Shown here: positions 21,513-39,037 of the stretch, piece by piece
Layout of the letters: each line of letters opens with the position of its first letter
Numbering within the stretch: the first letter of the stretch is position 1
Origin: Clostridium sp. MSJ-8
Lineage (GTDB): Bacteria; Bacillota; Clostridia; Clostridiales; Clostridiaceae
Direction: 5' to 3'
Length of the DNA stretch: 64,000 nt
NCBI RefSeq assembly: GCF_018918325.1
Contig: NZ_JAHLQH010000032.1
Location: 1-64,000, forward strand
Notes under the pieces: generated by a model
Databases searched by the model: none
The model's input: the letters and a program-made list of their open reading frames with translations, nothing else
What the model was told of the DNA's origin: nothing
Translations under genes and position numbers: made by a program

Positions 21513-21519
21513 AATGAAT

Positions 21520-21558
21520 TGAAACCACTTAATCTTTGATTAAGTGGTTTTTAATTTT
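21520..21558 (+). terminator. Terminator of the 6S RNA gene
   Basis: A perfect 13-bp stem (AAACCACTTAATC / GATTAAGTGGTTT, 21522-21550) with a TTT loop and a T-rich tail. Confidence 0.9.
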
Positions 21559-21593
21559 TAGGCAATTATATTTTGTTCATAGTTGTGGATAAC
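21559..21593 (+). repeat. Copy of the dispersed post-terminator element (long form)
   Basis: A 35-base stretch starting AGGCAATTATATTTTG right after the 6S terminator. It matches the copy at 39093-39127 at 30 of 35 bases. It ends with TGTGGATAA, which equals a DnaA-box 9-mer, probably by chance. Confidence 0.5.
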
Positions 21594-21681
21594 TATCTTA
21601 GATATAGTGCATAACTAAATTCAAGGCATACAAACCTAAAGAGTAAAAAAGAAAAATAGTGATATGAAATGGGGATAAAAT

Positions 21682-22215: not shown

Positions 22216-22391
22216 TCAAGGCAGATTTATTTTCAATGCATATTATGAATAAATAGGCGAATATATGGTGATAATATAAAAAGAAAAATATCAATTTACT
22301 ATTGATAAAAATACATATTAGATATTAAATAGTAATTGTTAACGATATAATGACATAAGAAGATTATGAATTTTCTGTAAGGGGGAAAGTT

Positions 22392-24119
22392 ATGAAATTT
22401 ATATTATCTATATTGAAGAAGTATAGAAAGGAATGTATAATTGCGCCATTATTTAAGATGCTAGAAGCTATATTTGAACTTTTTGTTCCTATTGTAGTTG
22501 CTTCTGTAATTGATAATGGGATAGCTTATAACAATAAGACTTATATAATTAAGATGGTTGTATTGCTTGTAGTTTTAGCTATAGTGGGATTAAGCTGTTC
22601 TATAACAGCACAGTATTTTGCAGCGAAAGCAGCTGTTAATACTGCAACTTCACTTAGAAGTAAATTATTTAAGCATATTCAATCATTGTCATTTACTGAA
22701 TTAGATACATTAGGAATATCTACTTTAATTACTAGGATGACTAGTGATATTAATCAAGTACAGAATGGAATAAACATGGTTCTACGTTTATTTTTAAGAT
22801 CTCCGTTTATAGTTTTTGGTTCAATGATTATGGCATTTACTATAGATTTTAAGGCTGCACTTATATTTTTATTTACAATACCTGTTTTAAGTATTGTAGT
22901 TTTTGGTATTATGAAGATAACAAGACCTTTATATAAGAAGTCTCAAACATCATTAGATAGAATATTAGGAATAACTAAAGAGAATTTATCTGGTGCAAGA
23001 GTAATTAGAGCTTTTAATAATGAAGATATAGAGAGACGAGATTTTTATAAAGCAAATGAAAATTTATCTTCAATACAAAAGTTAGCAGGAAAGATATCTG
23101 GGCTTATGAATCCACTTACATATATAATAATTAATGTAGCTATTATAATATTAGTATGGACAGGAGCAATAAGAGTAGATAATGGTATTCTAACTCAAGG
23201 TCAAGTTATAGCACTATATAATTATATGTCTCAAATATTAGTTGAATTAATTAAGCTTGCTAACTTAATAGTTAATGTAACTAAGGCAGTAGCATGTGCT
23301 AATAGACTTTCAGATGTATTTGAGATAAATAGTTCTATGAAGGAAGGAAATATAAATGAATTTTCTTCAGATTCTGAATATGAAGTAGAATTTAAAAATG
23401 TAAGTTTTAAGTATCAAGGTTCATCTGAAGATGCATTGACTAACATTAATTTTTCTGTTAAGAAAGGCGAAACAATTGGAGTAATAGGAGGAACAGGATC
23501 TGGTAAGTCTTCTTTGGTCAATCTTATTCCTAGGTATTATGATGTTACAGATGGAGAGATTTTAATAGATGGACGTAATGTTAAAGAATATACATTTTCA
23601 GCAATGCAGAAAAAGGTTTCTATAGTATTTCAGAAGGCACAGTTATTTAAAGGAACAATAAAAAGTAATTTATTAATTGCTAATGGAGAAGCAAGCGAAG
23701 CTGAAATCAAAAATGCTATTGATATATCTCAATCTACAGAGTTTATAGAGAATAAGGACAAAAAGATTAATTCTGAAGTAGAACAAGAAGGTAAGAATTT
23801 ATCAGGAGGTCAGAAGCAAAGACTTACTATTGCTAGAGCATTAGTTAAAAATTCAGATATATTAATTTTAGATGATAGTGCTTCAGCACTTGATTATGCT
23901 ACAGATGCAAAGCTTAGAAAAGCTCTTGCAAATATGAAAAATTCACCTACAGTCTTTATAGTATCACAAAGAACAGCATCTATTATGCATGCAGATAAAA
24001 TTATAGTTCTTGATGATGGTAAGGTAGTAGGTATAGGCAATCATAGAGAATTACTCGATAGATGTGAAGTATATAGAGAGATATATGATTCACAATTTAA
24101 AAAGGAGGGGGATAACTAA
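22392..24119 (+). CDS. ABC exporter half-transporter, degenerate-site subunit
   Basis: Six membrane helices (residues 1-310) plus a nucleotide-binding domain. Walker A GGTGSGKS and signature LSGGQ are normal. Walker B reads ILILDDSASALD with Asp where the catalytic Glu should be, and the H-loop reads IVSQRTAS with Gln for His. These are the marks of the degenerate site of heterodimeric exporters such as BmrCD, LmrCD and TM287/288. It overlaps the partner gene by one base (TAATG). It probably exports drugs, lipids or peptides; the substrate cannot be inferred. ATG follows AAGGGGGAAAG. Confidence 0.92.
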   Translation: MKFILSILKKYRKECIIAPLFKMLEAIFELFVPIVVASVIDNGIAYNNKTYIIKMVVLLVVLAIVGLSCSITAQYFAAKAAVNTATSLRSKLFKHIQSLSFTELDTLGISTLITRMTSDINQVQNGINMVLRLFLRSPFIVFGSMIMAFTIDFKAALIFLFTIPVLSIVVFGIMKITRPLYKKSQTSLDRILGITKENLSGARVIRAFNNEDIERRDFYKANENLSSIQKLAGKISGLMNPLTYIIINVAIIILVWTGAIRVDNGILTQGQVIALYNYMSQILVELIKLANLIVNVTKAVACANRLSDVFEINSSMKEGNINEFSSDSEYEVEFKNVSFKYQGSSEDALTNINFSVKKGETIGVIGGTGSGKSSLVNLIPRYYDVTDGEILIDGRNVKEYTFSAMQKKVSIVFQKAQLFKGTIKSNLLIANGEASEAEIKNAIDISQSTEFIENKDKKINSEVEQEGKNLSGGQKQRLTIARALVKNSDILILDDSASALDYATDAKLRKALANMKNSPTVFIVSQRTASIMHADKIIVLDDGKVVGIGNHRELLDRCEVYREIYDSQFKKEGDN

Positions 24120-25858
24120 TGAAAGATAAAACAATAAAAAAATTAATGAGTAGACTAAAGAAATATAAGGCACTTATTATATTTTCGCTTATTTTTGCTT
24201 TAGTAACAGTTATTCTTACATTATATCTTCCAATAATTATTGGAGAAGCAATTGATTGTATAGTGTCTAAAGGAAATGTTGACTATGATAAGATAATAAC
24301 ATTATTAATAAGAATAGGCATTGTGATAGCTATTACAGCAGTAGTACAGTGGGCTATGAATATATGTAATAACAAAATTACTTTTAATATAACTCGAGAT
24401 ATTAGAAATGAAGCTATTAATAAGATTGAAACTGTTCCTCTTAAATTTATTGATGCACATTCTCATGGAGATATAGCAAGTAGAGTTATTGCCGATGTTG
24501 ATCAATTAGCTGATGGACTACTTATGGGATTTACTCAATTTTTCACAGGAATAATTACTATTTTAGGTACACTTATATTCATGTTTTCCATTAATGTATG
24601 GATAGCATTATTAGTTGTATGCTTGACACCATTGTCATTATTAATAGCAAAATATATAGCAAGCCATACTTATTCAATGTTTAAAGTGCAATCAGAGATA
24701 AGAGGAGAAGAAACTTCATACATTAATGAGATTTTAGGTGGAGAAAAGGTTGTTAAATCATTTGGTTATGAAGATAAAGCTATTGAAACATTTGATGAAG
24801 TAAATGATAGATTGAAGCATGCATCATTAAAAGCATTATTTTATTCATCAATAACAAATCCAGCAACTAGATTTGTTAATAGTCTTGTTTATGCAGGTGT
24901 AATACTTATAGGATCATTTTCTGTTATATCTGGAGGATTATCAATAGGACTTCTTACTTGTTTCTTGAGTTATGCAACTCAATATACAAAGCCTTTTAAT
25001 GAAATTTCAGGGGTTATTACTGAACTTCAAAATGCTTTTGCATGTGCTGCAAGAATATTTGAACTTATAGAAGAGCCTTCAGAGGTTGAAGATAGTGATG
25101 ATGCAATATCTATTACAGATGTTCAAGGTAATGTTGAATTAAAAAATGTAAGTTTTTCTTATGTAAGTGATAAAAAACTTATAGAAAATTTTAATATCAA
25201 TGTAAAACCAGGAGAGAGAGTAGCAATAGTAGGTCCTACAGGATGTGGAAAAACAACAGTAATTAATTTATTAATGCGTTTCTATGATGTAAATAGTGGA
25301 GATATATATGTTGATGGAAATAAAATCAAAAACATTACTAGAAAAAGTTTAAGAAAATCATATGGAATGGTATTACAGGATACATGGCTTAAGTCTGGAA
25401 CAATAAGAGAAAATATTATTATGGGAAAGATGGATGCAACAGAAGAGGAGATTATAAATGCATGTAAGGAAGCACATTCATATGAATTTATAAGAAGAAT
25501 GCCTAAAGGATTAGATACATATATTACAGAAGATGGAGGCGGATTGTCTCAAGGACAAAAACAATTGTTGTGTATTACAAGGGTAATGCTTACATTACCA
25601 CCAATGCTTATATTAGATGAAGCAACATCTTCAATAGACACAAGAACAGAAATGAAGATACAAAATGCTTTTGCTAAGATTATGAAAGGCCGAACTAGTT
25701 TTATTGTAGCACATAGATTATCAACTATTCAGAGTGCAGATATAATATTAGTAATGAAAGATGGTAAAATAATAGAACAAGGTAATCATGAAGAATTGAT
25801 TAAACAAAATGGATTTTATGCTAATTTGTATAATAGTCAATTTGAAAATATATCATAA
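24119..25858 (+). CDS. ABC exporter half-transporter, catalytic-site subunit
   Basis: Partner of the preceding gene, 579 residues, with six membrane helices and an ATPase domain. Here Walker A GPTGCGKT, Walker B MLILDEATSSID (catalytic Glu kept) and the H-loop His (IVAHRLST) are intact, while the signature is changed to LSQGQ. In the dimer the normal Walker A/B of this subunit faces the normal LSGGQ of its partner, and the weak LSQGQ faces the partner's degenerate site. The complementary pattern shows that the two proteins form one asymmetric exporter. A terminator follows directly. Confidence 0.93.
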   Translation: MKDKTIKKLMSRLKKYKALIIFSLIFALVTVILTLYLPIIIGEAIDCIVSKGNVDYDKIITLLIRIGIVIAITAVVQWAMNICNNKITFNITRDIRNEAINKIETVPLKFIDAHSHGDIASRVIADVDQLADGLLMGFTQFFTGIITILGTLIFMFSINVWIALLVVCLTPLSLLIAKYIASHTYSMFKVQSEIRGEETSYINEILGGEKVVKSFGYEDKAIETFDEVNDRLKHASLKALFYSSITNPATRFVNSLVYAGVILIGSFSVISGGLSIGLLTCFLSYATQYTKPFNEISGVITELQNAFACAARIFELIEEPSEVEDSDDAISITDVQGNVELKNVSFSYVSDKKLIENFNINVKPGERVAIVGPTGCGKTTVINLLMRFYDVNSGDIYVDGNKIKNITRKSLRKSYGMVLQDTWLKSGTIRENIIMGKMDATEEEIINACKEAHSYEFIRRMPKGLDTYITEDGGGLSQGQKQLLCITRVMLTLPPMLILDEATSSIDTRTEMKIQNAFAKIMKGRTSFIVAHRLSTIQSADIILVMKDGKIIEQGNHEELIKQNGFYANLYNSQFENIS

Positions 25859-25864
25859 AGATAC

Positions 25865-25900
25865 GCTGTATAGGACGATAAATTCTATACAGCTATTTTT
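25865..25900 (+). terminator. Terminator of the ABC exporter operon
   Basis: GCTGTATAGGA pairs with TTCTATACAGC (one G-T pair) across a 7-base loop, then TATTTTT. Confidence 0.88.
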
Positions 25901-25917
25901 CTATAGAAAATTATAAT
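25901..25917 (+). repeat. Short copy of the dispersed post-terminator element
   Basis: CTATAGAAAATTATAAT directly after the exporter terminator; one base differs from the CTATAGGAAATTATA core. Confidence 0.35.
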
Positions 25918-26074
25918 TAAAGGTTCTTCAATTAGCGTTTTATAGAAAATATATTTAAAATGTATATTGTGATAATAATATGTGTGATATAGTATAAAAA
26001 AGAAATAGATTTAGAGATGTGTAAATAAGTTAATTGTATAAGATAAATAGTAAGAGAAAGGAAGTGGAACAAAA

Positions 26075-27562
26075 ATGAGTATTAATTATAAAGTGAGAAA
26101 AAAATTTGAAGAAGCAAAGTATCTATCAGTAGAGAATGCTGAGAGGTATAGAGTAATTCTAAGATTAGCATATGAAGAATATGAACAGATGAAGTTTTGG
26201 TTTTATAAAGAAGATATATATGAATTAATAACAAATATAGAAGGATTTGAGGAATATACACTAGATAATTTGAAACAAGATTTAGATTCTCTAGAAGAAT
26301 GGGGGAATCTTATTACAGTTCAAGATGCAAGCAGAGTAAAGACACTAGAAGAATTTAAAAATAGAAGATATAAGTATCAGATTTCTTCTAATACAATAGA
26401 GCTTGAGAGAACTTTAATTGCAATTGAGAATATAAATGAAACTTCTAGGGGGTCTTTAGAAATATCACTTATTGAGAACTTCAGAGATAAGTTATTGTGT
26501 ATTAAAGAAATAGATATGCAAGATAATCAAAAGGTATATTCATGGTGGATGAATTTAAGTGAAGAATTTAGAAGATTAAATGAGAATTATAAAGATTATA
26601 TTAGTAAGTTCTATTCTCCTAAAACGGAGGTTATACTAAAAACTACGGAGTTTCTATTATTCAAAGAGAATTTTATAAGATATTTAAGGCAATTTGTAAA
26701 AGGATTGCAGACATATGTTCCCTATATAAAAGAGATATTTGAAAAGATGGATGAACAGATAATTGTGCAATTAATTAACAATGTTATTGAATATGAGAAA
26801 AAGATAAATAATATAGATTCTTCATCATATGATGAAGAAAATGAATTCCGCATTATGTATGGAATGTATGATAATATGAAAAATTGGTTTATAGGCACTA
26901 ATAAAAAAGAAGCTATGATAGATAGTTTATTAGAGAATACTAATGAGATTATTAGAAAAATTACTACTTATGCGCTACAGATAATTGAGATGAATTCTCT
27001 AGGCGGAAATAGAAAAGAAGAATATAAAACAATAATTAATTTATTTAACAAATGTGAAGATATAGATGAAGCTCATAAGTTATCTTCAGTTGTATTTGGA
27101 GTACTTAACTCTAGACATATAGTATGTAATATTGATAGAGAAACTGAAAGTATTAATAGTAGTATATTTGAAGAAAAACCAACTAAGGTTATTGTAAAGC
27201 CAAGAAATAGATATAGAGAAAAAACTGCTAGCAGATCTCCTATAAGGGATAAGTCGGCAGAAAAAGAAAAAATAAGAAAAGAGATATTAAAGAAAAGAGA
27301 AAGAGAACAAGAACTTTTAGAAAGTAGAATAAAAGATAATAAGCTTGTATTTGCAAGTCTACAAGATATATCTAGAGAAGAGAGAAATATATTTTTAAAA
27401 TGGTTGTCTGTAGGATTAAATAGTAATGGTGCATGGACAAAAAATGAATATGGAAGATATTATAAAGTGGATATAACTAATAAGGATAAAAATATAGTTA
27501 TAAGTTGTCAAGATGGTGATTTTATTATGCCAGAATACGAGTTGATTTTTAAGGAGAAATAA
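26075..27562 (+). CDS. jetA: Wadjet system subunit JetA (DUF2397/TIGR02677-like)
   Basis: A 495-residue protein, first gene of a type I Wadjet operon. JetA is the kleisin-like linker of the JetABC SMC complex, which senses and destroys circular plasmids. Seen are the N-terminal winged-helix-like region (RYRVILRLAYEEYEQMKFW), a long helical middle, the basic stretch KVIVKPRNRYREKTASRSPIRDK (about 369-392) and a C-terminal domain ending KWLSVGLNSNGAWTKNEYGRYYKV, as in TIGR02677 proteins. The assignment depends on these features plus the exact A-B-C-D context. ATG has GAAAGGAAG 11 bases ahead. Confidence 0.88.
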   Translation: MSINYKVRKKFEEAKYLSVENAERYRVILRLAYEEYEQMKFWFYKEDIYELITNIEGFEEYTLDNLKQDLDSLEEWGNLITVQDASRVKTLEEFKNRRYKYQISSNTIELERTLIAIENINETSRGSLEISLIENFRDKLLCIKEIDMQDNQKVYSWWMNLSEEFRRLNENYKDYISKFYSPKTEVILKTTEFLLFKENFIRYLRQFVKGLQTYVPYIKEIFEKMDEQIIVQLINNVIEYEKKINNIDSSSYDEENEFRIMYGMYDNMKNWFIGTNKKEAMIDSLLENTNEIIRKITTYALQIIEMNSLGGNRKEEYKTIINLFNKCEDIDEAHKLSSVVFGVLNSRHIVCNIDRETESINSSIFEEKPTKVIVKPRNRYREKTASRSPIRDKSAEKEKIRKEILKKREREQELLESRIKDNKLVFASLQDISREERNIFLKWLSVGLNSNGAWTKNEYGRYYKVDITNKDKNIVISCQDGDFIMPEYELIFKEK

Positions 27563-27565
27563 GAA

Positions 27566-28693
27566 TTGAAATTTGATGATTTGTTAGAAAATTATATTAT
27601 ACTAAAAGATAATGATAGAGAGTTTTATTACGATATAAAAGATAATATAGATAATTATAGTGAATTTATAAATGAGATATTAGCTTATGATGTGATTATC
27701 AAAGATGACTTTATTAAATTAGAAAAGATTCCTGCAATACCAGAGTCTTGGATGGGGATTACTGATTTTAAAACTAAAAAAGAATACATATTTTTTATGC
27801 TTTTATTAATGTTTTTAGAGGAAAAAAATAAAGAAGATCAATTTGTTTTATCAAATATTACAGAATACATAATGAATTATTATCCTGATGAAAAGATAGA
27901 ATGGACTAATTTTACTAATAGAAAATCTTTGATTAATGTTCTTAAGTTTTCTCTCAAAATAGGAATAATGAGAAAGAATGATGGAGAAGAGGAGGATTTT
28001 TCTAGGAGTGAGTATGTAGAGGTATTATATGAATCTACAGGTATATCTAGATATATAGTTAGAAGGTTTAACTATTCCATAGAAGATGTTGAAGATTATA
28101 GAGATCTTATTAATAATGTTTGGGATGGAATAAATGAAGATAAAGGTAGCGTAAGAAAAAGTAGAGTATTTAGGAGACTTACATTATCTCCTATAGTCTA
28201 TAAAGATGATGGAAATGAGAGTGATTATGATTATATCAAGAAAAATAGGAGTTATATAGCTAATATTTTTGAAAAATATTTAGGTTGGACAGTTCATTTT
28301 CACAAGAATGCTGCTCTAGCAGTTCTAGAATCTCAGAGTACATTAAGAGATACTTTCCCTAACCAAAAAGGTGAAGCTTCTATAACACTTTTTGTTAATA
28401 GAGAAATATTGAAAAGGGTACAAGAAGGAAATCTTAAACCTAAGGAAAATGACATAATAATTTTAGATGAATCAGAATTTGATAATATTTTAATTAAGGT
28501 TAGAGAAGAGGAAGGACATGGATTTGCTAAGATTTATAGAGAGGCAAGTACAGAGAGATATATTTTAGATATAAAAAAATACATGGAATCATATTCTTTC
28601 ATTAAAAGAGAAGAAGGAATAATTAAACTTATGCCATTAATAGGAAAAATAATAGGAGAATATCCAAAAGATTATAAGGGAGATGAAAGGTAA
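27566..28693 (+). CDS. jetB: Wadjet system subunit JetB (DUF2398/TIGR02678-like)
   Basis: A 375-residue winged-helix KITE-like partner of JetA/JetC, in the order expected for type I Wadjet. Family-like stretches are the N-terminal DNDREFYYDIKDN, the central ESTGISRYIVRRF and RRLTLSPIVYKDD, and EKYLGWTVHFHKNAALAVLE, which resembles the conserved G-W-x-[VL]-x-[VL]-H-x-x-x-A-x-L segment of DUF2398. The start is TTG at 27566, 9 bases after AAGGAG inside the end of jetA; no ATG fits. It stops immediately before jetC. Confidence 0.85.
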   Translation: MKFDDLLENYIILKDNDREFYYDIKDNIDNYSEFINEILAYDVIIKDDFIKLEKIPAIPESWMGITDFKTKKEYIFFMLLLMFLEEKNKEDQFVLSNITEYIMNYYPDEKIEWTNFTNRKSLINVLKFSLKIGIMRKNDGEEEDFSRSEYVEVLYESTGISRYIVRRFNYSIEDVEDYRDLINNVWDGINEDKGSVRKSRVFRRLTLSPIVYKDDGNESDYDYIKKNRSYIANIFEKYLGWTVHFHKNAALAVLESQSTLRDTFPNQKGEASITLFVNREILKRVQEGNLKPKENDIIILDESEFDNILIKVREEEGHGFAKIYREASTERYILDIKKYMESYSFIKREEGIIKLMPLIGKIIGEYPKDYKGDER

Positions 28694-31600
28694 GTGGATA
28701 GATGGGTAGCAAATAAATTTGGATTAATAAATTTTTGGAAATATGATGAACAAGAATTTAAGTTATCTAATGGAAAAATAATATTTAGAGGAAGCAATGG
28801 AAGTGGAAAATCAGTAACTACTCAAAGCTTTATTCCTTTATTATTAGATGGAGATAAAAGTCCTAGTAGACTTGATCCATTTGGATCAACAGCTAGAAAG
28901 ATAGAGAATTATGTATTAGTTGATGAAAAAGAAGATGATAGAATATCTTATTTATATATGGAGTTTCACAAACCAAGTACTGATAATTATATAACAATAG
29001 GAATGGGGCTTAGAGGGAGAAGAGGTAAAAAATTAGAATCTTGGTATTTTATATTGAAAGATGGAAGAAGAATAAATAAGGAGTTGTTTTTATATAAGAA
29101 TACAGGGGCAAAGTTTTCTTTAACTTCCAAACAACTTGAGATTGCTTTAGGAGAAGGAAATGTATATACTACTAGTCAAAAGGAGTATATGGCAAAGGTA
29201 AATGAAAATTTATTTGGCTATTCTGATATTGATAGTTATAAGGATTTATTAAAGCTATTGATTCAGATAAGGAGTCCTAAGTTATCTAAAGATTTTAAAC
29301 CAACTGTAATATATGAAATATTAAAGGAATCATTAAATACATTGTCAGAAGATGATTTAAGAGCAATGGCAGAAGCAATGGATAATATGGATAGCTTAAA
29401 TATGAAGCTTGAAGAATTAAAAAAGAGTAGAGAAGCTTGTGAAAAAATAATAGAAGTATTAAATAGATATAATGTGGAAAAGCTATATAATAAGGCTATT
29501 AATTATAACAAAGAGCTTAAAAAAGTTAATAATATAGATAAACAACTAGAATTAAATAAACAAGAACTAGAGAATATTATTGTAGAAGTTAATGAAGATA
29601 AACTAAAGCTGAAGGAGTTAGAGAATATATTAGAACAAGCGAAGATAAAAGAAACCTCATTAAAAGGTAGTAAAGAGTATGCCTTAAGTGATGAAATAAC
29701 TAAGCTTGAGCATAAACTATACGATTTGCAACAAGAACTTCAACTAAAAGAAAGAAGATACAATAATAAATATAATGATTATCTTTATAAAAAAGATAAA
29801 AAGAAACAAATAGAAGATAAAATATATAGAATAAATAATAAGTTAAAAGAAAAACTAGATGATGAAAAATATTACAGAGAAGGTATATATTTTAACCATA
29901 AAGAAGATATTTATGGAATAATAAATGAGGAATATGTAGATAAGATTGATAATTTAATTATATATTTAGAAGAATACTCAAAGTTAATTGATAATATATA
30001 CAATAAGATAGTTCAATATGAACAAAAGAAAAAAGAATTAAATGATATAGAAGAAAATAAGAATAAACAAGAAAGTAAAGTAGAAGGCATCAAAAATAAT
30101 TTAAATGAAGCAAAGGAATATTTAACTACAGTTAAGAGCGAATATATTGATAGCTTAAATTCATACATATATTCCCTAAAAGAATTAAAAATAAAAAGAG
30201 AAGATATACTAGATATACACAAGAGAGTAAATGGAATATATGATAAGAATCAAAAAGATGTTATAAGAAATAAGATAACAGATATATATAGAAATATATC
30301 TAATGAACTTGAGATAGATAATATAAAGATACAAAATGCTATAAATCTTATTGATGAAGAGATAGAGATTAAGAAGAAATGTATAGAAGAATTATCTTCT
30401 AAAAAGCAAATAATAGAGGATAGTAATGAGTTATCTAAAGTAAAGAATATATTAGATACATATGATATTCCATATATAGATTTTTATAAATCGATTGATT
30501 TTAATGAAGATGTGGATGATTTAGAGAAGAATATTATAGAAGGACATTTACTTAATATGGGAATAATAGATTCACTTATCATTCCTCATAAGTATAAAGA
30601 GGAAGTGTGCAATTTATTAAATAATAAGACTTACAAGATAATATTTTCTAATATTCCTGAAGAGGTAGATAATATATGTAAATATTTTAGATTGGAAGAA
30701 AATGAATTTAATAAAACTTATAAAGAAGATACTCTAAATGTATTAAAGGCTATAGGACATTATGATGCTTATGTTACATCAGAAAATAGCACTCAAATTA
30801 TTAAGAACAAAGGTTATAATATAGGTATTCTACAAGGTAATACTGAAGATACTTATATATCAAAATATATTGGTATAGAATCTAGAGAAAATTATAGAAG
30901 AGTTCAAATTCAAAGTTTTGAGAAATATATATATGAATTACAAATTCAAAAAGAAGAAAAAAATAAAGAGATATTATCATTAGAAAACAGAAAGGCTATA
31001 TTATTAAAAGAAAAAGAAGAATTTCCTGATATATCAGATATTATGGAAAGTATTAAAATAATAGACCAAAAAGAAGAAGAATTAGATAGAGAAGAGAAGG
31101 AATTAAACTTTATAGAAGGTAAATTTGTTCAAATTAACAGAGAGAAACAAGAGATAAATAAACAGATTTTTGATGCATCTCAGTCTATAAATATACCTAA
31201 GGAAAAACATATATATGAAGAGGTTAAAGAAGGAATATCTGATTATAGGAAGACTTTATATAGCATTAAGGAATATTCAAATGAAATATTTAGTGAAAAT
31301 AAACAAAAACAATATATATGTGAAACTATAAAATCAATTGAAAGTGATATTGATGAGTTATCTTATGAGGTTGATAAACAAAAAAACTCAATTGAAAAAA
31401 TAAATAACCATATAAAAGGGTTAAATGAGGCAATTAAAGCTTATAACATTGGAAAACTAAAAGAAGAATATAGAAAGGTAACTGAGATAATAGAAAAGAG
31501 TCCATTAGAAATTCAACATATATCTAAGCAGTTAGGTAATAAGGAAGCAAATGTAGAAAATAAAAAGGCTGCAATAATTAAGTTAGAAGATGATTTAAAT

Positions 31601-32758
31601 AATGAAAAGAATAAACTAAGGATTTATGAATTAATGTTAAAGGATGAATTATCTTTGCAGTACATAGATGAAATAAAATCCTATGATATTAATAAATCTG
31701 TTAAATGGGTTATAAAATATTATGAAGAGAAAGCAATTAAAAATGAAAATATTTTAGAAAAATTATTTAATACATTTAATATGTATAAAGGCAGTCTTAT
31801 AGATTATCATCCAAAACCAATAGAAATATTTAACCAATATGATCGAGAAGAGGATGATGAGATAAATGAAATTCTAAAAGAAGGAATTAGAACAGATATA
31901 GTTGTTAAATTTCAGAAAAAAAACATAAGTATATATGTACTTAAGGAATATATTGAAGGAACGTTAGAAGAACAGAATATGCTTATAAATGCGAAGGAAA
32001 GGGAAGTGTTTGAAGATACGCTTATAAACACTCTTAGTACTAAAATTATAGCCAAAATAGTAAGAGCTCAGAAATGGGTTAAAGATATAGATAAGCTTAT
32101 GAGTAACATGAATACATCTAGTGGATTTAAATTATTTTTAGAGTGGAAACCTAAGAAATCAGATAGTGAAACTGAGCTAGATATAAAAGAGCTTATGGAT
32201 ATATTACAAAAACCTCACTTTATGTCTGAGGATAAGAGAAATAAAGTTTCAGAACATTTTAAGGAAAAACTAAAAAAACAAAAAAGAATACTTAATGAAG
32301 ATGGAACAAGAAAAAATTATCAAACAATAATAAAAGAAGTATTAGATTATAGAGAATGGTTTGAGTTTAAGCTTAAATTTATAAAAGGAGATAAAGATAA
32401 AAAGGAATTAACTAATAATCAATTCTTTGTTTTGTCAGGAGGAGAGAAAGCAATGGCTATGTATATTCCATTATTTGCAGCAGTAAATGCTAGATACAAT
32501 GCAGCTGACAAAAAAGATTCTCCTAGAATAATTGCATTAGATGAAGCATTTGCAGGCGTTGATGAAAATAATATAAGTTCTATGTTTGATCTTATAGAAA
32601 GTTTAAATTTAGATTATGTACTTAATTCACAGGTATTATGGGGAACATATGAGAGTGTTAAGCAATTATCAATATACGAATTGATAAAAGAAGGTGAAGA
32701 TATAATAATTCCTATAAGATATACATGGAATGGAAAGATAAAAGAGATGGGGATGTAG
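28694..32758 (+). CDS. jetC: Wadjet system SMC-like ATPase JetC (TIGR02680-like)
   Basis: A 1354-residue SMC ATPase that extrudes DNA loops; in Wadjet it identifies small circles. The N-terminal FRGSNGSGKSVTTQSFIPL (P-loop near 33-40) and LLDGDKSPSRLDPFGS are the hallmark start of TIGR02680. The middle is two long coiled-coil arms with a hinge-like globular break around residues 600-740. The C-terminal head has signature FVLSGGEKAMAMYIPLFAA (about 1247) and Walker B IIALDEAFAGVDENN (about 1281). The GTG start at 28694 directly abuts the jetB stop, so coupling is likely. The reading frame is whole and the motifs are intact, so it looks active. Confidence 0.95.
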   Translation: MDRWVANKFGLINFWKYDEQEFKLSNGKIIFRGSNGSGKSVTTQSFIPLLLDGDKSPSRLDPFGSTARKIENYVLVDEKEDDRISYLYMEFHKPSTDNYITIGMGLRGRRGKKLESWYFILKDGRRINKELFLYKNTGAKFSLTSKQLEIALGEGNVYTTSQKEYMAKVNENLFGYSDIDSYKDLLKLLIQIRSPKLSKDFKPTVIYEILKESLNTLSEDDLRAMAEAMDNMDSLNMKLEELKKSREACEKIIEVLNRYNVEKLYNKAINYNKELKKVNNIDKQLELNKQELENIIVEVNEDKLKLKELENILEQAKIKETSLKGSKEYALSDEITKLEHKLYDLQQELQLKERRYNNKYNDYLYKKDKKKQIEDKIYRINNKLKEKLDDEKYYREGIYFNHKEDIYGIINEEYVDKIDNLIIYLEEYSKLIDNIYNKIVQYEQKKKELNDIEENKNKQESKVEGIKNNLNEAKEYLTTVKSEYIDSLNSYIYSLKELKIKREDILDIHKRVNGIYDKNQKDVIRNKITDIYRNISNELEIDNIKIQNAINLIDEEIEIKKKCIEELSSKKQIIEDSNELSKVKNILDTYDIPYIDFYKSIDFNEDVDDLEKNIIEGHLLNMGIIDSLIIPHKYKEEVCNLLNNKTYKIIFSNIPEEVDNICKYFRLEENEFNKTYKEDTLNVLKAIGHYDAYVTSENSTQIIKNKGYNIGILQGNTEDTYISKYIGIESRENYRRVQIQSFEKYIYELQIQKEEKNKEILSLENRKAILLKEKEEFPDISDIMESIKIIDQKEEELDREEKELNFIEGKFVQINREKQEINKQIFDASQSINIPKEKHIYEEVKEGISDYRKTLYSIKEYSNEIFSENKQKQYICETIKSIESDIDELSYEVDKQKNSIEKINNHIKGLNEAIKAYNIGKLKEEYRKVTEIIEKSPLEIQHISKQLGNKEANVENKKAAIIKLEDDLNNEKNKLRIYELMLKDELSLQYIDEIKSYDINKSVKWVIKYYEEKAIKNENILEKLFNTFNMYKGSLIDYHPKPIEIFNQYDREEDDEINEILKEGIRTDIVVKFQKKNISIYVLKEYIEGTLEEQNMLINAKEREVFEDTLINTLSTKIIAKIVRAQKWVKDIDKLMSNMNTSSGFKLFLEWKPKKSDSETELDIKELMDILQKPHFMSEDKRNKVSEHFKEKLKKQKRILNEDGTRKNYQTIIKEVLDYREWFEFKLKFIKGDKDKKELTNNQFFVLSGGEKAMAMYIPLFAAVNARYNAADKKDSPRIIALDEAFAGVDENNISSMFDLIESLNLDYVLNSQVLWGTYESVKQLSIYELIKEGEDIIIPIRYTWNGKIKEMGM

Positions 32759-32763
32759 GGGAA

Positions 32764-34044
32764 GTGAGAGAAGCACTAGATTTTATCGAAAATAATAGAA
32801 TATACAAGAATATATTTAAGAGCATATATAATAAATATAAGAAGTATGGAAAGATAACTGGAAGTTTTAGTATATATCCTAAGAATGATGAGGATGTAAA
32901 AGTGCTAATGAATTTTGACATAAGTGTTATAACAGATAGAAAGGCTACAATAAGATCTAAAGTTGTACAAGAATTATTTGAAAATAAATTTAAAAATATT
33001 GATTTTTTAGAGCTGTTAGAGGAAGTTGTAGGTAAAGAATTAATTACTAACAAAGAAGTTAAAGAAAATGAAACTAACAAACTTAAAAATTTTTATGGAG
33101 AAGTTATAAAAGAATCAGATGAAGGATATGGAAAACGATGGTTTATTTATGTTGTTTCAGAAAAGTCAAAAGGTTATTCAATAATAAAAAAGCGTTATAA
33201 CGATAAAAGTGAATCAACAAATAAATTAAAGTTACAACTTATATATATTAACAATTGTTTAAGTAACTTACCATATATAAAGGGGGGAAAGGAAAATATA
33301 TCAGTTTTTTCAGCCCAATTAACAAAAAATCCTCATTTTTTGGATTATGATAAGTTTACAGGTAAGTTGTTTATTTATGGTTTGCAATTTATAACAAGAT
33401 TAGAAATAGATATTTCTAGAGTTGTAAATATAAATGAACTATATTATAAGGTAGGAATATTAAAAGATGAAATATCTAATCATTCTACAATATACAATAT
33501 AGATTGCTATGATTATAATAATATGTTTATAGAACATATAAATGAATTTTTTAAGTGGGGAGAAACTTTAGAACTTTCTATAAGAAATATTCTTAAGATA
33601 GAGTATTTTATTGCAAAAAGAAGTATTATATATATTTTTGAGAATCCAGCAGTATTTAATGAAGTACAGAAGAGGACTATAAAGGATGATGTTTCATTAA
33701 TGTGTACTAGTGGACAGATTAATTTATCTTCATATTTAATATTGGATAAGATAAAAGATATACAGAAGATATATTATGCTGGTGATTTCGATCCGGAAGG
33801 TTTGATTATAGCAGATAAAATCGCAGATAGGTATGGAGATAAAGTGGAATTTTTATTTTATGATGTAGATACGTTTAATGAGATAATATCATCAAAAAAA
33901 ATAGATGAGAAAAGAATAAGTATGTTGAATAACATAAAAAGTCCTAAATTAAAAAAAATTACAGATGCAATAAGAGAAAAGAAACTAGCTGCTTATCAAG
34001 AATTATTGATAGATAAATATGTTAACTATATAGAAAATAATTAA
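32764..34044 (+). CDS. jetD: Wadjet system nuclease JetD (Toprim, DUF2399/TIGR02679-like)
   Basis: The Toprim nuclease that cuts plasmids caught by JetABC. The C-terminal DUF2399 Toprim core is visible: an acidic strand before the core, then YYAGDFDPEGLIIADKIADRYG with the D-x-D-x-x-G metal site, and VEFLFYD. The N-terminal part (REALDFIENNRIYKNIFKSIYNKYKKYGKITG) resembles the matching domain of TIGR02679. GTG at 32764 places GGGGA 10 bases upstream and gives the family-like N-terminus. An in-frame ATG at 32725 would overlap jetC by 34 bases with no visible ribosome site. A perfect hairpin follows, closing the operon. Confidence 0.9.
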   Translation: MREALDFIENNRIYKNIFKSIYNKYKKYGKITGSFSIYPKNDEDVKVLMNFDISVITDRKATIRSKVVQELFENKFKNIDFLELLEEVVGKELITNKEVKENETNKLKNFYGEVIKESDEGYGKRWFIYVVSEKSKGYSIIKKRYNDKSESTNKLKLQLIYINNCLSNLPYIKGGKENISVFSAQLTKNPHFLDYDKFTGKLFIYGLQFITRLEIDISRVVNINELYYKVGILKDEISNHSTIYNIDCYDYNNMFIEHINEFFKWGETLELSIRNILKIEYFIAKRSIIYIFENPAVFNEVQKRTIKDDVSLMCTSGQINLSSYLILDKIKDIQKIYYAGDFDPEGLIIADKIADRYGDKVEFLFYDVDTFNEIISSKKIDEKRISMLNNIKSPKLKKITDAIREKKLAAYQELLIDKYVNYIENN

Positions 34045-34100
34045 AAAATTAATGTTTTTTGAAAGAAAGTGATTCTTTAATATTATGATAAAAATGAGGT

Positions 34101-34135
34101 TATCGCACTAAAAAATAGTGCGATACTTTTTCTTT
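34101..34135 (+). terminator. Terminator of the Wadjet operon
   Basis: Perfect 10-bp stem TATCGCACTA/TAGTGCGATA with an AAAAA loop, then CTTTTTCTTT. Confidence 0.93.
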
Positions 34136-34136
34136 A

Positions 34137-34175
34137 TGTAAACGTATTGAATAAAAAGAAAAAAATTGGTAGAAT
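34137..34175 (+). promoter_or_regulatory. Promoter of amylase 1 with overlapping CcpA-type operator
   Basis: TTGAAT (34147-34152), 17 bases, TAGAAT (34170-34175). TGTAAACGTATTGA (34137-34150) resembles the catabolite-responsive element TGWAARCGYTWNCW and overlaps the -35 box. The same layout recurs at 36646-36684. The rest of the 34045-34309 gap holds the jetD terminator and an AT-rich leader of about 130 bases. Confidence 0.65.
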
Positions 34176-34309
34176 ATAAAATATGAAATATGTGAATTTT
34201 TTGTGATTTAATTGTAAATATTATATTGGGTAATATTATTTATTTTCTTATATTTTTGTAAGAAAGTATAATATTAAAATATTTATTTAAATTATAAGGG
34301 GGAAATAAT

Positions 34310-36523
34310 ATGAAAGGAAAAAGAAAACTTTTAGTTAGTATATTATTATCAATAATAATACTAACAGGATCTTTTCTTGCTACATCTTTAGTTGCTAATG
34401 CTGCTTCTAATAGCAATATTATTGTTCACTTCTATACAGAAGATTGGAAGAGTCCAAGAGTATATTATTGGAATGCTCATCCAACTAATATAGAAACTAC
34501 TTGGCCAGGTAAAAAGATGACTAGTGAAGGCAGCAATTGGTTTACTTATACTTTTGAAGGCAAGACTAAGATTAATTTGATTTTTAATAATGGAGGTTCT
34601 AATCAAACTCCTGATTTAGAAGGAATTAAAGCAGGCGAATGGTGGTATAAGAATGGTCAATGGACAAGTTATGATCCTGATGATAGACCACAAACTTCAG
34701 GAGACTTCAGAGATGAAACAATATATTTTGTTATAACTACAAGATTCTATGATGGTGATGAGAGTAATAATGTTCATTGTTGGGATGACAAGAAGGCAGG
34801 AAATACTGATTCAGATCCAGCATGGAGAGGAGACTTTAAAGGTCTTATACAGAAATTAGATTATATCAAGGCTATGGGATTCTCAGCAATATGGATAACT
34901 CCTGTAGTAGAAAATATGAGTTATTATGATTATCATGGATATCATGCAATTAATTTTGCAAAGGTAGATAGTAGATACGAATCAAAAGATTGTACTTATC
35001 AAGACCTAATAAATGCATGTCATGAAAAAGGAATAAAACTTATACAAGATATAGTACTTAATCATACATCTAATAATGGAGAAGAAAATATATTCCCATT
35101 AGTAAGTAAACAAGAAGGAAAAGAAGATACAGCAGAAAATGTTGTTAGAGCATCTAATAGTTTATTAGATTCAAGTTATGATTCATTAAACTCTGCTGGA
35201 AAGCATGATGCTAGATATGCATTAATGAAGAATTTAACTACTAATAATGGAATATATCATAATTCTTCAATAAATTATGAAGGCTTTACAGTAACTACAG
35301 GACAATTTGCAGATGATTGCGTTGATTTAAATACAGAAAATCCAACAGTTTATAATTATTTAATTAATTGCTACAACAGATATATAGATATGGGTGTAGA
35401 TGCATTTAGAATTGATACTGTTAAGCATATTTCAAGATTGACATTTAATAAAACATTCTTACCAGCATTTAAGGCAAGAGGTGGAAAAGACTTCTTTATG
35501 TTTGGTGAATGTGCAGCTAGAGTACATGAGATATGGAATAAAGGAGTACCAGGAGTATCATCACAATTCTTTACATGGAAGGAAGATAAAGAATATCCAT
35601 GGAGTGATAATCCAAATGATTATGAATTAAATTGTAAGAGTACAGAGCTAGAATTTAATGATAATTCAAGTGTAGAATCTCAGAGAACTTCTGATAATGC
35701 ATTCTTAAAAGGTAATGAATATCATACTCCAGATTATTCTCAAAATTCAGGCCTTGCAATGATAGATTTTACAATGCACTGGAATTTTGATAACGCAAAT
35801 AATGCATATGGAAAAGCTCTAGAAGAAGACAGGTACTATAATGATTCAACTTGGAATGTAGTATATGTTGATTCACATGATTATGGTCCAGATAGTAAGA
35901 TAAGATACAATGGTGGAACAACAGCTTGGGCTGAAAATTTAGATTTAATGTTCTCATTTAGAGGTATACCTTGCGTATATTATGGATCAGAAATTGAATT
36001 TAAATCAGGACAACCTATAGATGAAGGAAATCAAATAGCATTAAAAGATAGTGGTAGAGCATATTATGGAGATAATATAGAAGGTTCAGTTGTAACAACA
36101 GATTATGGTGTATATAGTAATGCAACAGGACAAATGGCAACAACATTAAATAGTCCTTTATCAAAGCATATACAAAGATTAAATCAAATAAGAAGAGCAA
36201 TTCCTGCACTTAGAAAAGGACAATATTCAACAGAAGGATGTAATGGTAATATGGCATTCAAGAGACGTTTTACAGGAAATGATTCATTAACAGGAAAAGA
36301 TGTAGATAGCTTTGTATGTGTGGCTATATCAGGACAAGCAACATTTACAGGAATTCCAAATGGAACTTATGTAGATGCAATTACAGGCAATAAAGTAACA
36401 GTAGGAAATGGAACATTAACTACAGATTCTATAGGACAAGCTAATATGAGAGTATATGTGTTGCAAAACTCTTCAACTCAAACTGGAAAGATAGGTTCTG
36501 TAGATTCTCAATTCTTAAAATAA
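34310..36523 (+). CDS. Secreted GH13 alpha-amylase with N-terminal CBM26-like module (amylase 1)
   Basis: A 737-residue extracellular starch-degrading enzyme. A Sec signal peptide (1-31, cleavage near VANA-AS) is followed by a starch-binding module (about 35-122; VHFYTEDWKSPRVYYWNA, WPGKKMTSEG, LIFNNGG) like CBM26. The GH13 barrel has nucleophile D369 (DAFRIDTVKH), acid/base E400 (FMFGECA) and D524 (VDSHDYG). A beta-rich C domain ends the protein; no cell-wall anchor is visible. ATG has AAGGGGGAAA upstream. The gene has its own promoter and terminator. Its N-terminal 120 and C-terminal 130 residues nearly match the paralogue downstream. Confidence 0.95.
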   Translation: MKGKRKLLVSILLSIIILTGSFLATSLVANAASNSNIIVHFYTEDWKSPRVYYWNAHPTNIETTWPGKKMTSEGSNWFTYTFEGKTKINLIFNNGGSNQTPDLEGIKAGEWWYKNGQWTSYDPDDRPQTSGDFRDETIYFVITTRFYDGDESNNVHCWDDKKAGNTDSDPAWRGDFKGLIQKLDYIKAMGFSAIWITPVVENMSYYDYHGYHAINFAKVDSRYESKDCTYQDLINACHEKGIKLIQDIVLNHTSNNGEENIFPLVSKQEGKEDTAENVVRASNSLLDSSYDSLNSAGKHDARYALMKNLTTNNGIYHNSSINYEGFTVTTGQFADDCVDLNTENPTVYNYLINCYNRYIDMGVDAFRIDTVKHISRLTFNKTFLPAFKARGGKDFFMFGECAARVHEIWNKGVPGVSSQFFTWKEDKEYPWSDNPNDYELNCKSTELEFNDNSSVESQRTSDNAFLKGNEYHTPDYSQNSGLAMIDFTMHWNFDNANNAYGKALEEDRYYNDSTWNVVYVDSHDYGPDSKIRYNGGTTAWAENLDLMFSFRGIPCVYYGSEIEFKSGQPIDEGNQIALKDSGRAYYGDNIEGSVVTTDYGVYSNATGQMATTLNSPLSKHIQRLNQIRRAIPALRKGQYSTEGCNGNMAFKRRFTGNDSLTGKDVDSFVCVAISGQATFTGIPNGTYVDAITGNKVTVGNGTLTTDSIGQANMRVYVLQNSSTQTGKIGSVDSQFLK

Positions 36524-36532
36524 TATAATAGA

Positions 36533-36571
36533 AAATACCTTTAGGGAAAGTTTCCTTAAGGGTATTTTTTA
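36533..36571 (+). terminator. Terminator of amylase 1
   Basis: AAATACC pairs with GGTATTT at the base of an imperfect hairpin, followed by a T run. Confidence 0.85.
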
Positions 36572-36645
36572 GTTAAATAAAGAATGTTAAAATCGCCATA
36601 ATTCATATATAATTCTTTATTCTTAAATTTGTTCTAAAAAATGTA

Positions 36646-36684
36646 TGTAAACGTATTGAAATTTATTGATAAATCGAGTAGAAT
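36646..36684 (+). promoter_or_regulatory. Promoter of amylase 2 with overlapping CcpA-type operator
   Basis: TTGAAA (36656-36661), 17 bases, TAGAAT (36679-36684). The operator-like TGTAAACGTATTGA (36646-36659) is identical to the one before amylase 1 and again overlaps the -35 box. Confidence 0.65.
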
Positions 36685-36765
36685 AATTTATATAAAGTAT
36701 TAATTATTTATTACTTTTTTATGAATTACAAACTAATACAATTGATATAGTGTTTTGACTATACT

Positions 36766-36779
36766 TGTAAACGTTATTT
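36766..36779 (+). promoter_or_regulatory. Second CcpA-type operator in the amylase 2 leader
   Basis: TGTAAACGTTATTT differs by one base from TGWAARCGYTWNCW. It lies about 75 bases after the predicted transcription start, where a bound repressor could block elongation. With the promoter and terminator entries this accounts for the 366-base gap; the remainder is AT-rich with no ORF. Confidence 0.55.
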
Positions 36780-36889
36780 TGATTAATATTATTTATTTTC
36801 TAATGTTCATTGTAGTTTCTATATTACATAAGGGGGAATAAAGGAAAATAATATATTAAAATATTTTTTAAAATTATCAAGGGGGAAAT

Positions 36890-39037
36890 ATGAAGAAGAA
36901 AAGAAAACTATTAATTAGTATCTTAATGGCTGTTGTATTACTATGTGGATCTTTTCTTGCAACATCTTTAGTTGCTAATGCAGCTTCTGATAGTAATATT
37001 ATTGTTCACTTCTATACAGAAGATTGGAAGAGCCCAAGAGTATATTATTGGAACGCACATCCTACTAATATAGAAACTACTTGGCCAGGCAAGAAGATGA
37101 CTAGTGAAGGTGACAATTGGTTCACTTACACTTTTGAAGGCAAGACTAAGATTAATCTTATTTTTAATGATGGTGGTTCAAATCAAACTCCTGATTTAGA
37201 AGGAATCAAATCAGGCGAATGGTGGTATAAAGACGGTAAATGGACATCTAAGAACCCTGATTATCATACAAATTATGAGAGATCTGGAGATTTTAGAGAT
37301 GAAACTATTTACTTCCTTATAACTACAAGATTCTATGATGGTGATGAAAGCAATAACTATCGTTGTTCAGAAGATAAAAAGGCACAAAACCCTGATTACG
37401 ATCCATCATGGAGAGGAGATTTTAAAGGACTTATAGAAAAACTTGATTATATCAAGGCACAAGGATTCTCAGCTATATGGATAACTCCGGTAGTAGAGAA
37501 TAGAAGTGGGTATGATTATCATGGATATCATGCATATAATTTCACTAAAGTTGATTCTAGATACGAATCAGATGGTGTAACTTATCAAGATTTAATAGAT
37601 GCATGTCATGAAAAAGGAATAAAAGTAATTCAAGACGTTGTATTCAATCATACTTGTAACTGGGGAGAAGAAAACTTACTACAAAGAAATAGTGATGTAT
37701 ATGCAGAGAGAAACCAAGTTGTTATGAATGGTAAAGAAGACACAGAAAATATCTATCACCATAATGGATTCTGTGGCGGTGGTGACTGGGATAACTATTC
37801 AGCACAAAATAAAACAATTGCAGATGACTGTTTCGATTTAGAAACAGAAAATCCAAAGGTATACAATTATCTAGTTGATGCTTATAAGAACTACATTAAT
37901 ATGGGTGTTGATGGATTTAGAGTTGATACTGTTAAACATATTAATAGATTAACATTAAATACTGCTATATTACCAGAATTACAAAAGACTGGTGGAGATA
38001 GTTTCTATATGTTTGGTGAAGTATGTACTAAGGGTCATGATGTATGGTATCGTGATCAACCAGGAATATCTACATGTTTCTATACTTGGGATGATGATGA
38101 TTCTTGGAAGAGTAAATGGAGTGATACTGATTTAGCAACTAATGAAGCATTAGTTGAATCACATTATGTAGCACATTCTAATATGTCAAACCAACCAACT
38201 AGTGATAATGCATTCTTAAAGGGAAATGAATATCATACTCCAGATTATTCAAAGAAATCTGATATGGGTGTAATTGACTTTCAAATGCATTGGAGTTTTA
38301 TAAATGCTAAAGGTGCATTTGATACTGCTAAGGGAGAAGATAAATACTTCAATGATTCTACATGGAATGTAGTATATGTTGATTCACACGACTATGCTCC
38401 AGATGAATGCCAAAAATTAAGATACAATGGTGGAACAACTGCATGGGCAGAAAACTTTGATTTAATGTATACATTCCGTGGAATTCCATGTGTATACTAT
38501 GGAAGTGAAATAGAGTTTAAAGCTGGAAAGCAAATAGATGTTGGACCAAATGATAAGCTTGAAAATACAGGTAGAGCATACTTTGGAGATAATATAGAAG
38601 GTTCAGTTGTAACAACAGATTATGGTGTATACACTAATGCAACAGGACAAATGGCAGAAACATTAAATAGTCCGCTATCAAAACAACTACAAAGATTAAG
38701 TCAAATAAGAAGAGCAATTCCTGCACTTAGAAAAGGACAATATTCAACAGAAGGATGTAATGGAAATATAGCATTCAAGAGACGTTTCACAGGAAATGAT
38801 TCATTAACTGGAAAAGACGTAGATAGCTTTGTATGTGTAGCAATATCAGGACAAGCAACATTTACAGGAATTCCAAACGGAACTTATGTAGATGCAATTA
38901 CAGGAAATAAAGTAACAGTAGGAAATGGAACATTAACTACAGATTCTATCGGACAAGCTAATATGAGAGTATATGTATTACAAAACTCTTCAACTCAAAC
39001 TGGAAAGATAGGACAAGATACTGATTACTTAAAATAA
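36890..39037 (+). CDS. Secreted GH13 alpha-amylase with N-terminal CBM26-like module (amylase 2)
   Basis: A paralogue of amylase 1, 715 residues, with the same order: signal peptide (1-31, VANA-AS), CBM26-like module (35-122), GH13 barrel and C domain. Catalytic residues are D346 (DGFRVDTVKHI), E377 (YMFGEVC) and D501 (VDSHDYA). The barrel differs from amylase 1, with a different loop between the VxNHT strand and the ADDC strand (LLQRNSDVYAERNQVVM) and a shorter B-domain region, so substrate range may differ. LLCG in the signal peptide is not a lipobox, since -1 is Leu. Separate promoter and terminator. ATG follows CAAGGGGGAAAT. Confidence 0.95.
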   Translation: MKKKRKLLISILMAVVLLCGSFLATSLVANAASDSNIIVHFYTEDWKSPRVYYWNAHPTNIETTWPGKKMTSEGDNWFTYTFEGKTKINLIFNDGGSNQTPDLEGIKSGEWWYKDGKWTSKNPDYHTNYERSGDFRDETIYFLITTRFYDGDESNNYRCSEDKKAQNPDYDPSWRGDFKGLIEKLDYIKAQGFSAIWITPVVENRSGYDYHGYHAYNFTKVDSRYESDGVTYQDLIDACHEKGIKVIQDVVFNHTCNWGEENLLQRNSDVYAERNQVVMNGKEDTENIYHHNGFCGGGDWDNYSAQNKTIADDCFDLETENPKVYNYLVDAYKNYINMGVDGFRVDTVKHINRLTLNTAILPELQKTGGDSFYMFGEVCTKGHDVWYRDQPGISTCFYTWDDDDSWKSKWSDTDLATNEALVESHYVAHSNMSNQPTSDNAFLKGNEYHTPDYSKKSDMGVIDFQMHWSFINAKGAFDTAKGEDKYFNDSTWNVVYVDSHDYAPDECQKLRYNGGTTAWAENFDLMYTFRGIPCVYYGSEIEFKAGKQIDVGPNDKLENTGRAYFGDNIEGSVVTTDYGVYTNATGQMAETLNSPLSKQLQRLSQIRRAIPALRKGQYSTEGCNGNIAFKRRFTGNDSLTGKDVDSFVCVAISGQATFTGIPNGTYVDAITGNKVTVGNGTLTTDSIGQANMRVYVLQNSSTQTGKIGQDTDYLK

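Follow-up and report, generated by a model that had tools for sequence, protein, structure and literature searches.

A type II Wadjet (jetABCD) gene cluster at a variable site in Clostridium sp. MSJ-8

Gene layout and subunit identity

The window (i.e. the whole stretch of 64,000 nucleotides of Clostridium sp. MSJ-8 that was analysed) contains four closely spaced open frames on the forward strand at 26075-34044, in the order jetA, jetB, jetC and jetD, and reading of these frames revealed no frame break. The first, jetA (26075..27562, 495 aa, ATG start), encodes a type II kleisin subunit (DUF2397), jetB (27566..28693, 375 aa, TTG) a type II KITE subunit (DUF2398), jetC (28694..32758, 1354 aa, GTG) an SMC-like ATPase, and jetD (32764..34044, 426 aa, GTG) a Toprim nuclease with DUF3323 and DUF2399; kleisin and KITE are the roles assigned to JetA and JetB in the literature. 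The intergenic gaps are 3, 0 and 5 nt, with jetC starting straight after the jetB stop codon, and from this spacing it seems that the four genes form one operon and share a transcript. Shine-Dalgarno-like sequences, read by eye, lie upstream of jetA, jetB and jetC.

The GTG at 32764 taken as the start of jetD coincides with the start codon position in three relatives (L070, L135 and L140). The ORF lister gave a longer frame of 439 aa, starting at ATG 32725, while a start at 32755 was ruled out, the codon there being GTA. The original prediction had thus read the four start codons (ATG, TTG, GTG, GTG) correctly, as it had the complete set of four Wadjet genes in the order A-B-C-D. Its direct stop-start contacts are real for jetB/jetC (0 nt), but not for jetA/jetB (3 nt) or jetC/jetD (5 nt). 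With only one of three junctions direct, and with non-ATG starts that are not conserved, the tuned subunit ratios deduced from them find no support: the nearest start in relatives is ATG for 13/18 jetB, 13/16 jetC and 13/16 jetD genes (counts limited to genes readable by a simple heuristic).

One terminator-like stem is found after the ABC exporter gene, ahead of jetA (25865..25893, forward strand), and another after jetD (34101..34125, forward strand, scored on both strands), as expected for the self-contained cassette that had been described. Between 25700 and 34500 four such stems were found, versus a mean of 0.7 in shuffles. The GC content of the jet genes is 0.24-0.26, compared to 0.27-0.33 for 12 other genes in the window; GC3 overlaps, so that the low GC is weak evidence of foreign origin.

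The best PADLOC models for the four proteins are JetA2, JetB2, JetC2 and JetD2, with matches spanning nearly the full length of each. JetA scores 559 bits with JetA2 and 284 bits with TIGR02677 (cut-off 166), and also matches PF09660; JetB scores 428 bits with JetB2 and 151 bits with TIGR02678 (cut-off 125), and matches PF09661. For JetC, JetC2 gives 1282 bits versus 71 for JetC1, and TIGR02680 gives 668 bits (cut-off 463). JetD reaches 371 bits with JetD2 versus 13.6 with JetD3 and 13.0 with JetD1, and lies above the cut-offs of PF11796 and PF09664. Three of the TIGR models on which the original prediction was to be checked are therefore matched above cut-off, whereas the fourth, TIGR02679, is matched by JetD at 114 bits (E 8.5e-33), below its curated cut-off of 196. 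Under PADLOC naming, these models stand for type II subunits.

Judged by its profile matches, the system in the window is a Wadjet of type II, and not of type I as had been stated. Type I is ruled out by the scores of JetC (71 bits for JetC1 versus 1282 for JetC2) and JetD (13 versus 371 bits for JetD1 and JetD2), together with JetD proteins of types I and III from the same genus, used as controls, which sort to JetD1 and JetD3 in the PADLOC scan. Type III is likewise ruled out, since the window JetD scores only 13.6 bits with JetD3, compared to 328 bits for the type III control (L147). JetD falls below the cut-off of PF09983 (JetD_C; 15.4 versus 22 bits). By itself PF09983 is not a clean divider of types, as the type II JetD of some congeners pass it narrowly, at ~22-23 bits.

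Catalytic motifs of JetC and JetD

The SMC motifs that had been reported as intact are all present in JetC. The Walker A motif or P-loop, GSNGSGKS (residues 33-40, 28790..28813), is invariant at residues 33 and 35-40 among 12 aligned JetC sequences; in the same alignment residues 1248-1254 of the ABC signature LSGGEKAMA (residues 1247-1255, 32432..32458) and residues 1282-1286 of the Walker B motif IIALDEAF (residues 1279-1286, 32528..32551, within a PF13558 SbcC_Walker_B match) are invariant as well.

In JetD, the first acidic residue of the Toprim domain is E293 (33640..33642), which is invariant in 17/17 clostridial JetD2 and in 11/11 of a wider set. The DxD pair D341 and D343 (33784..33792) is part of the DFDPEG motif noted earlier, here located at residues 341-346. 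E293, N294, D341, D343 and G346 are invariant in all 11 JetD2 of the wider set, which covers three phyla (Clostridia, Alicyclobacillus, Cupriavidus, Pseudonocardia and Streptomyces). Comparison of the JetD2 profile with type I JetD (E 1e-6) places the Toprim triad in register, with E293 aligned to E266 and D341/D343 to D312/D314 of a type I JetD. Searches of the PDB with JetD gave no credible match, i.e. a chance-like best E of 0.022 with the single sequence and nothing up to E 10 with the profile; this says little about the window JetD, because a type I JetD of the same genus has no PDB match at E 0.001 either.

Residue 411 was considered as a type-II-specific catalytic tyrosine, being Tyr in 17/17 clostridial JetD2 and Glu in type I, and was rejected: in five plasmid-borne relatives the residue is Phe, Pro, Ser, Met and His, so that Tyr411 is a feature of the clade. 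Close by, Glu413 is conserved in 10/11 sequences.

Genomic site, distribution and proposed function

Between the 6S RNA (21320-21508) and the DUF896-hprK genes is a variable site (21509..45977) that holds the cassette, along with amylases, a subtilase, a LOG-like gene and a pair of ABC exporter genes. The original prediction had suggested looking for the same site without the cassette in close relatives; 22 congeners were examined, and in all 12 in which the site was readable the jet genes are absent. In line with the original prediction, a Pfam scan of 15 flanking proteins gave no match to a transposase or integrase family. A small protein at 20877-21269 has no Pfam match, and no direct repeats were found within either of the two stretches at the cassette ends (451 and 421 bases), each searched separately.

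Within the genus, TIGR02677 is matched in 12 of 68 genomes (E<=0.001) and type II jetA is present in 11 of 68, the own genome included in both counts. This patchiness, together with a JetAB tree that conflicts with the tree of the neighbouring chromosomal helicase gene, points to horizontal spread of the Jet genes. Helicase and JetA identity are not significantly correlated among nine congeners (Spearman -0.54, p 0.14), and the tree conflict is the better evidence for spread of the two. Identity to relatives ranges from 30 to 62% (62% for the nearest JetA), and in two congeners the operons lie near a Septu PtuA-like gene and a type IV restriction-like gene. On plasmids, the order A-B-C-D recurs in 5/5 annotated loci (seven were fetched, two being without annotation), and 19 of 20 plasmid-borne JetC relatives are on records of 149 kb or more, which is weak evidence, as any 8 kb operon may often sit on long plasmids.

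An SMC/MukB-like ATPase encoded together with two partner subunits could also be a condensin akin to MukBEF/MksBEF, acting in the organisation of the host chromosome, and JetD would then be an accessory. This seems extremely unlikely: a canonical SMC is encoded elsewhere in the same genome (C1:39908-43450, above the model cut-off), the JetA family is missing from most genomes of the genus, and the operon includes a gene for a conserved nuclease subunit, which a condensin operon is expected to lack.

Instead, it is concluded with a probability of about 0.9 that jetABCD encodes a functional type II Wadjet anti-plasmid system, as suggested by all four subunits matching type II models with intact motifs. 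From the literature on other systems, we infer loop extrusion, size sensing and cleavage for this one too. JetA, JetB and JetC would form a paired, ATP-driven loop extruder, which would load on DNA and reel it in; on a small circle the DNA would run out, upon which the extruder would stall and offer a bent segment to JetD, whose Toprim domain would make a double-strand cut. The chromosome would escape cleavage, its length being too great for full extrusion. Counted against this reading are the TIGR02679 score of JetD below cut-off, the lack of a PDB match for JetD, the weak resemblance of the JetC hinge to that of 9qe0, and one MobA-type relaxase gene in the own genome, though that gene has housekeeping genes around it on a contig of 81 kb.

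Circular replication intermediates of phages or integrative elements could in general be substrates too, but a defence directed chiefly against these rather than plasmids is very unlikely, given that the Wadjet systems described in the literature, as far as the available accounts go, act on plasmids. A search of 50,697 phage records turned up no JetD relative, a result that carries little weight in either direction.

That the locus is a silent or non-functional relic is about equally improbable. A decayed or changed locus of the same type II clade does exist in the genus (L071 in genome G024): jetA and jetB are open frames there and the JetC (1193 aa) has all three ATPase motifs, but it lacks the part around the hinge (residues ~581-746 of the window JetC), and no recognisable JetD was found in that genome. 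The window, in contrast, has four open frames, intact motifs and the Shine-Dalgarno-like sequences, and its invariant columns are retained despite 30-62% identity among relatives. Loop extrusion was reported to persist in a Wadjet core lacking the elbow-to-hinge segment (PMC12647877), and the G024 complex might therefore itself be a natural, nuclease-free and hinge-less extruder put to new use instead of a relic, although this is very unlikely.

If jetABCD is indeed a functional Wadjet, the strain is predicted to resist small circular vectors, as was seen for C. cellulovorans. At the time of PMC10586767, most Wadjet research had been on type I, which makes complete and well-bounded type II examples helpful. 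The present one adds a further type II system, whose insertion site is mapped and can be read in its empty form in congeners; it is intact but ordinary and of a kind already known, so that its value is mainly practical and comparative and the overall picture of Wadjet is unchanged.

Comparison with known Wadjet systems

A literature search pairing Wadjet with DUF2397 retrieved no paper. The type I systems of E. coli GF4-3, Pseudomonas aeruginosa PA14 and Corynebacterium glutamicum (MksBEFG) share the general mechanism, as outlined in PMC10586767, whereas their subunit families differ from those in the window, as is evident from the far lower JetC1 and JetD1 scores; the Toprim triad of clostridial type I JetD is nevertheless in register with that of the window JetD by profile comparison.

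As in the window, the jetABCD genes of Clostridium cellulovorans 743B (Clocel_0831-0834) are chromosomal. The Wadjet of Bacillus cereus Q1 is of type I. It is Q1 with which the Wadjet of C. cellulovorans was compared in PMC12287153, where deletion of the native jetABCD increased plasmid conjugation by approximately five orders of magnitude. Because of the comparison with Q1, and because the deletion spanned ~6.4 kb (from 10.7 to 4.3 kb) versus 8 kb for the window operon, the C. cellulovorans and window systems are probably of different types.

The type II systems of Clostridium algifaecis (L002), C. carboxidivorans (L003) and 10 other genomes of the genus above the TIGR02677 cut-off have the same motifs as the window system. 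All clostridial type II loci in which the four genes were found have the order A-B-C-D of the window, while those of other Clostridia lie at other genomic sites.

By sequence, the JetABC chains of 9qe0/9qe1 are the only solved relatives of the window JetA, JetB and JetC, and we take these entries to be the nvJET complex of Neobacillus vireti LMG 21834, which likewise has four subunits. JetA matches 9qe0_E at E 9e-75, JetB matches 9qe0_D at E 4e-59 and JetC matches 9qe0_A at E 2e-182 over residues 3-1349. The alignments cover almost the whole length of the proteins (612, 255 and 204 bits across the three subunits), with a JetC of 1354 aa compared to a chain of 1371. The exception is the JetC hinge, which is only weakly alike in sequence; the nvJET hinge is reported to have no central channel. 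The type II Wadjet of N. vireti, according to PMC12647877, cleaves naked circular DNA.

Identity and type of the jet operon

The four jet genes follow one another on the forward strand as intact open reading frames, jetA at 26075-27562, jetB at 27566-28693, jetC at 28694-32758 and jetD from a GTG at 32764 to 34044 (426 aa), with gaps of 3, 0 and 5 nt between them and with terminator-like stems ahead of jetA (25865-25893) and 3' of jetD (34101-34125). The mechanical ORF for jetD opens at ATG 32725, but since the codon matching GTG 32764 is the start in three relatives (L070, L135 and L140), the latter is most likely the start here. The original prediction had described the genes as present and intact, with the ATPase motifs and DFDPEG, all of which was confirmed, and had also proposed tuned subunit ratios, for which the analysis gave no support.

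It had further read the operon as type I, and this has to be revised. The PADLOC type II models are the best for all four proteins (JetA2 559, JetB2 428, JetC2 1282 and JetD2 372 bits), and the only matches to other types at E ≤ 0.001 are to JetC1 models, at just 71 and 25 bits. When same-genus JetD proteins of other types were run against the PADLOC models as controls, those of loci L142 and L146 were assigned to JetD1 and that of L147 to JetD3, while the window JetD was assigned to JetD2 and scored 13 to 14 bits against JetD1 and JetD3. By these scores and controls, the operon is a complete type II Wadjet at the level of sequence, i.e. a further example of a class that is already known. The three control loci also show type I and type III JetD to be present in the genus. 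The family assignments expected earlier held for three NCBIfam models, TIGR02677, TIGR02678 and TIGR02680, which exceed their cut-offs in the window Jet proteins, whereas TIGR02679 reached E 8.5e-33 for JetD, yet remained under its cut-off. JetA, JetB and JetC each matched one PDB sequence (phmmer, E ≤ 0.001), namely the chains so named in 9qe0/9qe1; we take these structures to be the Neobacillus vireti type II complex cited in PMC12647877.

The genome holding the window has a single JetD of the type II kind, and its canonical SMC is encoded elsewhere, apart from jetC. PF09983 (JetD_C) has no match in this genome at E ≤ 0.001; the model is not type-specific at the margin, as some congeners' JetD2 score about 22-23 bits, and part of its matches, which occur in 26 of 68 genus genomes, are type II JetD.

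Counted from GTG 32764, residues E293, N294, D341, D343, E345 and G346 of JetD are invariant in an alignment of 17 clostridial JetD2 (the window and 16 relatives), and E293, N294, D341, D343 and G346 are still invariant in a wider set of 11 (six clostridial proteins plus those of Alicyclobacillus, Cupriavidus, Pseudonocardia and two Streptomyces). Because this conservation is wide, it argues for the window JetD being a working nuclease. A comparison of the JetD2 profile with five type I JetD proteins aligned 142 columns (E 1e-6, probability 91), in a register that places E293 on E266 and D341/D343 on D312/D314. In MksG, a type I relative, metal is bound by E236 and D279, and alanine mutants of these residues are drastically impaired in activity, according to PMC10123090.

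A variable site and its cargo

In congeners, a recurrent gene order runs from a UvrD-like helicase (window 18205-20496), which we presume to be HelD, through a small gene (20877), 6S RNA, DUF896 and hprK to an M18 peptidase. The helicase was found in 55 of 68 genus genomes, the window's own included (E ≤ 1e-100), and 22 loci from 22 of the helicase-bearing genomes were read. Twelve were readable, having both 6S RNA and DUF896 on the locus (M18 was not found in two), while two that reach a contig end and eight with the helicase alone within 20 kb are uninformative. Comparison with relatives at the same site, as the original prediction had proposed, indeed reveals presence versus absence: jet genes between 6S RNA and DUF896 are absent from all 12 readable congener loci. 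Ten of these carry no window cargo gene there, and G060 and G061 have an amylase at the site and lack both the LOG-like gene and the ABC exporter pair, as well as jet. The window interval from 6S RNA to DUF896-hprK (21509-45977), with 24.5 kb of cargo, is thus a variable site; the direction of change, i.e. gain here or loss elsewhere, would be read from the patchy distribution. In two congener loci (L108 and L109), a stretch of about 10-12 kb instead separates the helicase from the small gene that precedes 6S RNA.

In scans of 18 other window proteins PADLOC found no further defence system, the matches being to generic ABC and subtilase models. Two adjoining amylases with CBM26 modules (34310-36523 and 36890-39037), parts of which are 70% and 82% identical, look like a tandem duplication, and a subtilase bearing starch-binding modules comes next. 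Elsewhere in the same genome, a lone MobA/VirD2-type relaxase gene (L158:9771-10625) lies amid housekeeping genes (enolase, NAD synthase) and is perhaps the leftover of a mobilisable element.

Distribution and history of the jet genes

With the window's own genome counted in, 12 of 68 genus genomes have a TIGR02677 match at E ≤ 0.001 (above the cut-off in 11), and across the order 27 of 225 genomes have one to TIGR02680 at E ≤ 1e-20. G060 and G079 are jet-free at the site, yet have a type II system elsewhere in the genome. In a JetA+JetB tree of 19 rows the window clusters with G007, G013 and G060 (98/97), whereas in a helicase tree of 10 rows G007 clusters with G047, G059 and G069 (100/99), whose Jet rows fall in clades other than that of G007. 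This conflict points to horizontal spread of the jet genes, within the limits that the Jet-tree branch of G059 is long, that G013 has no helicase row, and that the Jet tree omits G069's second type II system (its jetA divided between contigs C93 and C21).

A search of 50,697 phage records yielded no relative of JetD, and a JetC relative was present in 20 of 72,556 plasmid records. Nineteen of these are at least 149 kb long, and the remaining record, of 73 kb, matches just 11% of JetC. As a raw count, with no fewer than two linear records from Streptomyces and a 'plasmid' record of 11.9 Mb, the size pattern is only suggestive. In two congeners the type II jet operon has a Septu PtuA-like or a type IV restriction-like gene in its vicinity (L069:15861-17018 and L070:7406-9853), and so likely sits in a defence island. 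An Alicyclobacillus dauci plasmid carries a type II jet operon and, after it, a PemK/MazF-family gene and a Cas12b gene, the latter split into two parts in the annotation (L163:9457-12077).

The most unusual item met lies outside the window. The type II JetC of G024 (L071, i.e. G024:C23:10000-29999, at 7716-11297, reverse strand) keeps its frame open over 1193 aa but is missing the equivalent of residues 581-746 of the 1354-aa window JetC, about 166 residues around the hinge, and its match to the JetC of 9qe0 falls into two segments (5-567 and 742-1355). Because the missing part is placed between the coiled coils, it would hold the hinge. Other full-length JetC frames among the matches listed from the order span 1349 to 1383 aa, and none of them is a second JetC of this kind; G065, G083 and G223 have JetC in pieces only, unusable for length comparison. 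A profile search of G024 found no JetD at E ≤ 0.001, and a relic is the likelier reading of the locus.

Comparison with known Wadjet systems

By analogy with other Wadjet systems, as described in PMC12287153, the window copy would act by loop extrusion and cleavage: JetABC would extrude DNA loops, and JetD would cut a small circle once its DNA is exhausted. In Clostridium cellulovorans, deletion of the native jetABCD raised conjugative plasmid uptake by about five orders of magnitude (same source). For type II, PMC12647877 reports that the N. vireti system cleaves naked circular DNA and has a channel-less hinge, and that it is blocked by a tethered obstacle which type I can pass.
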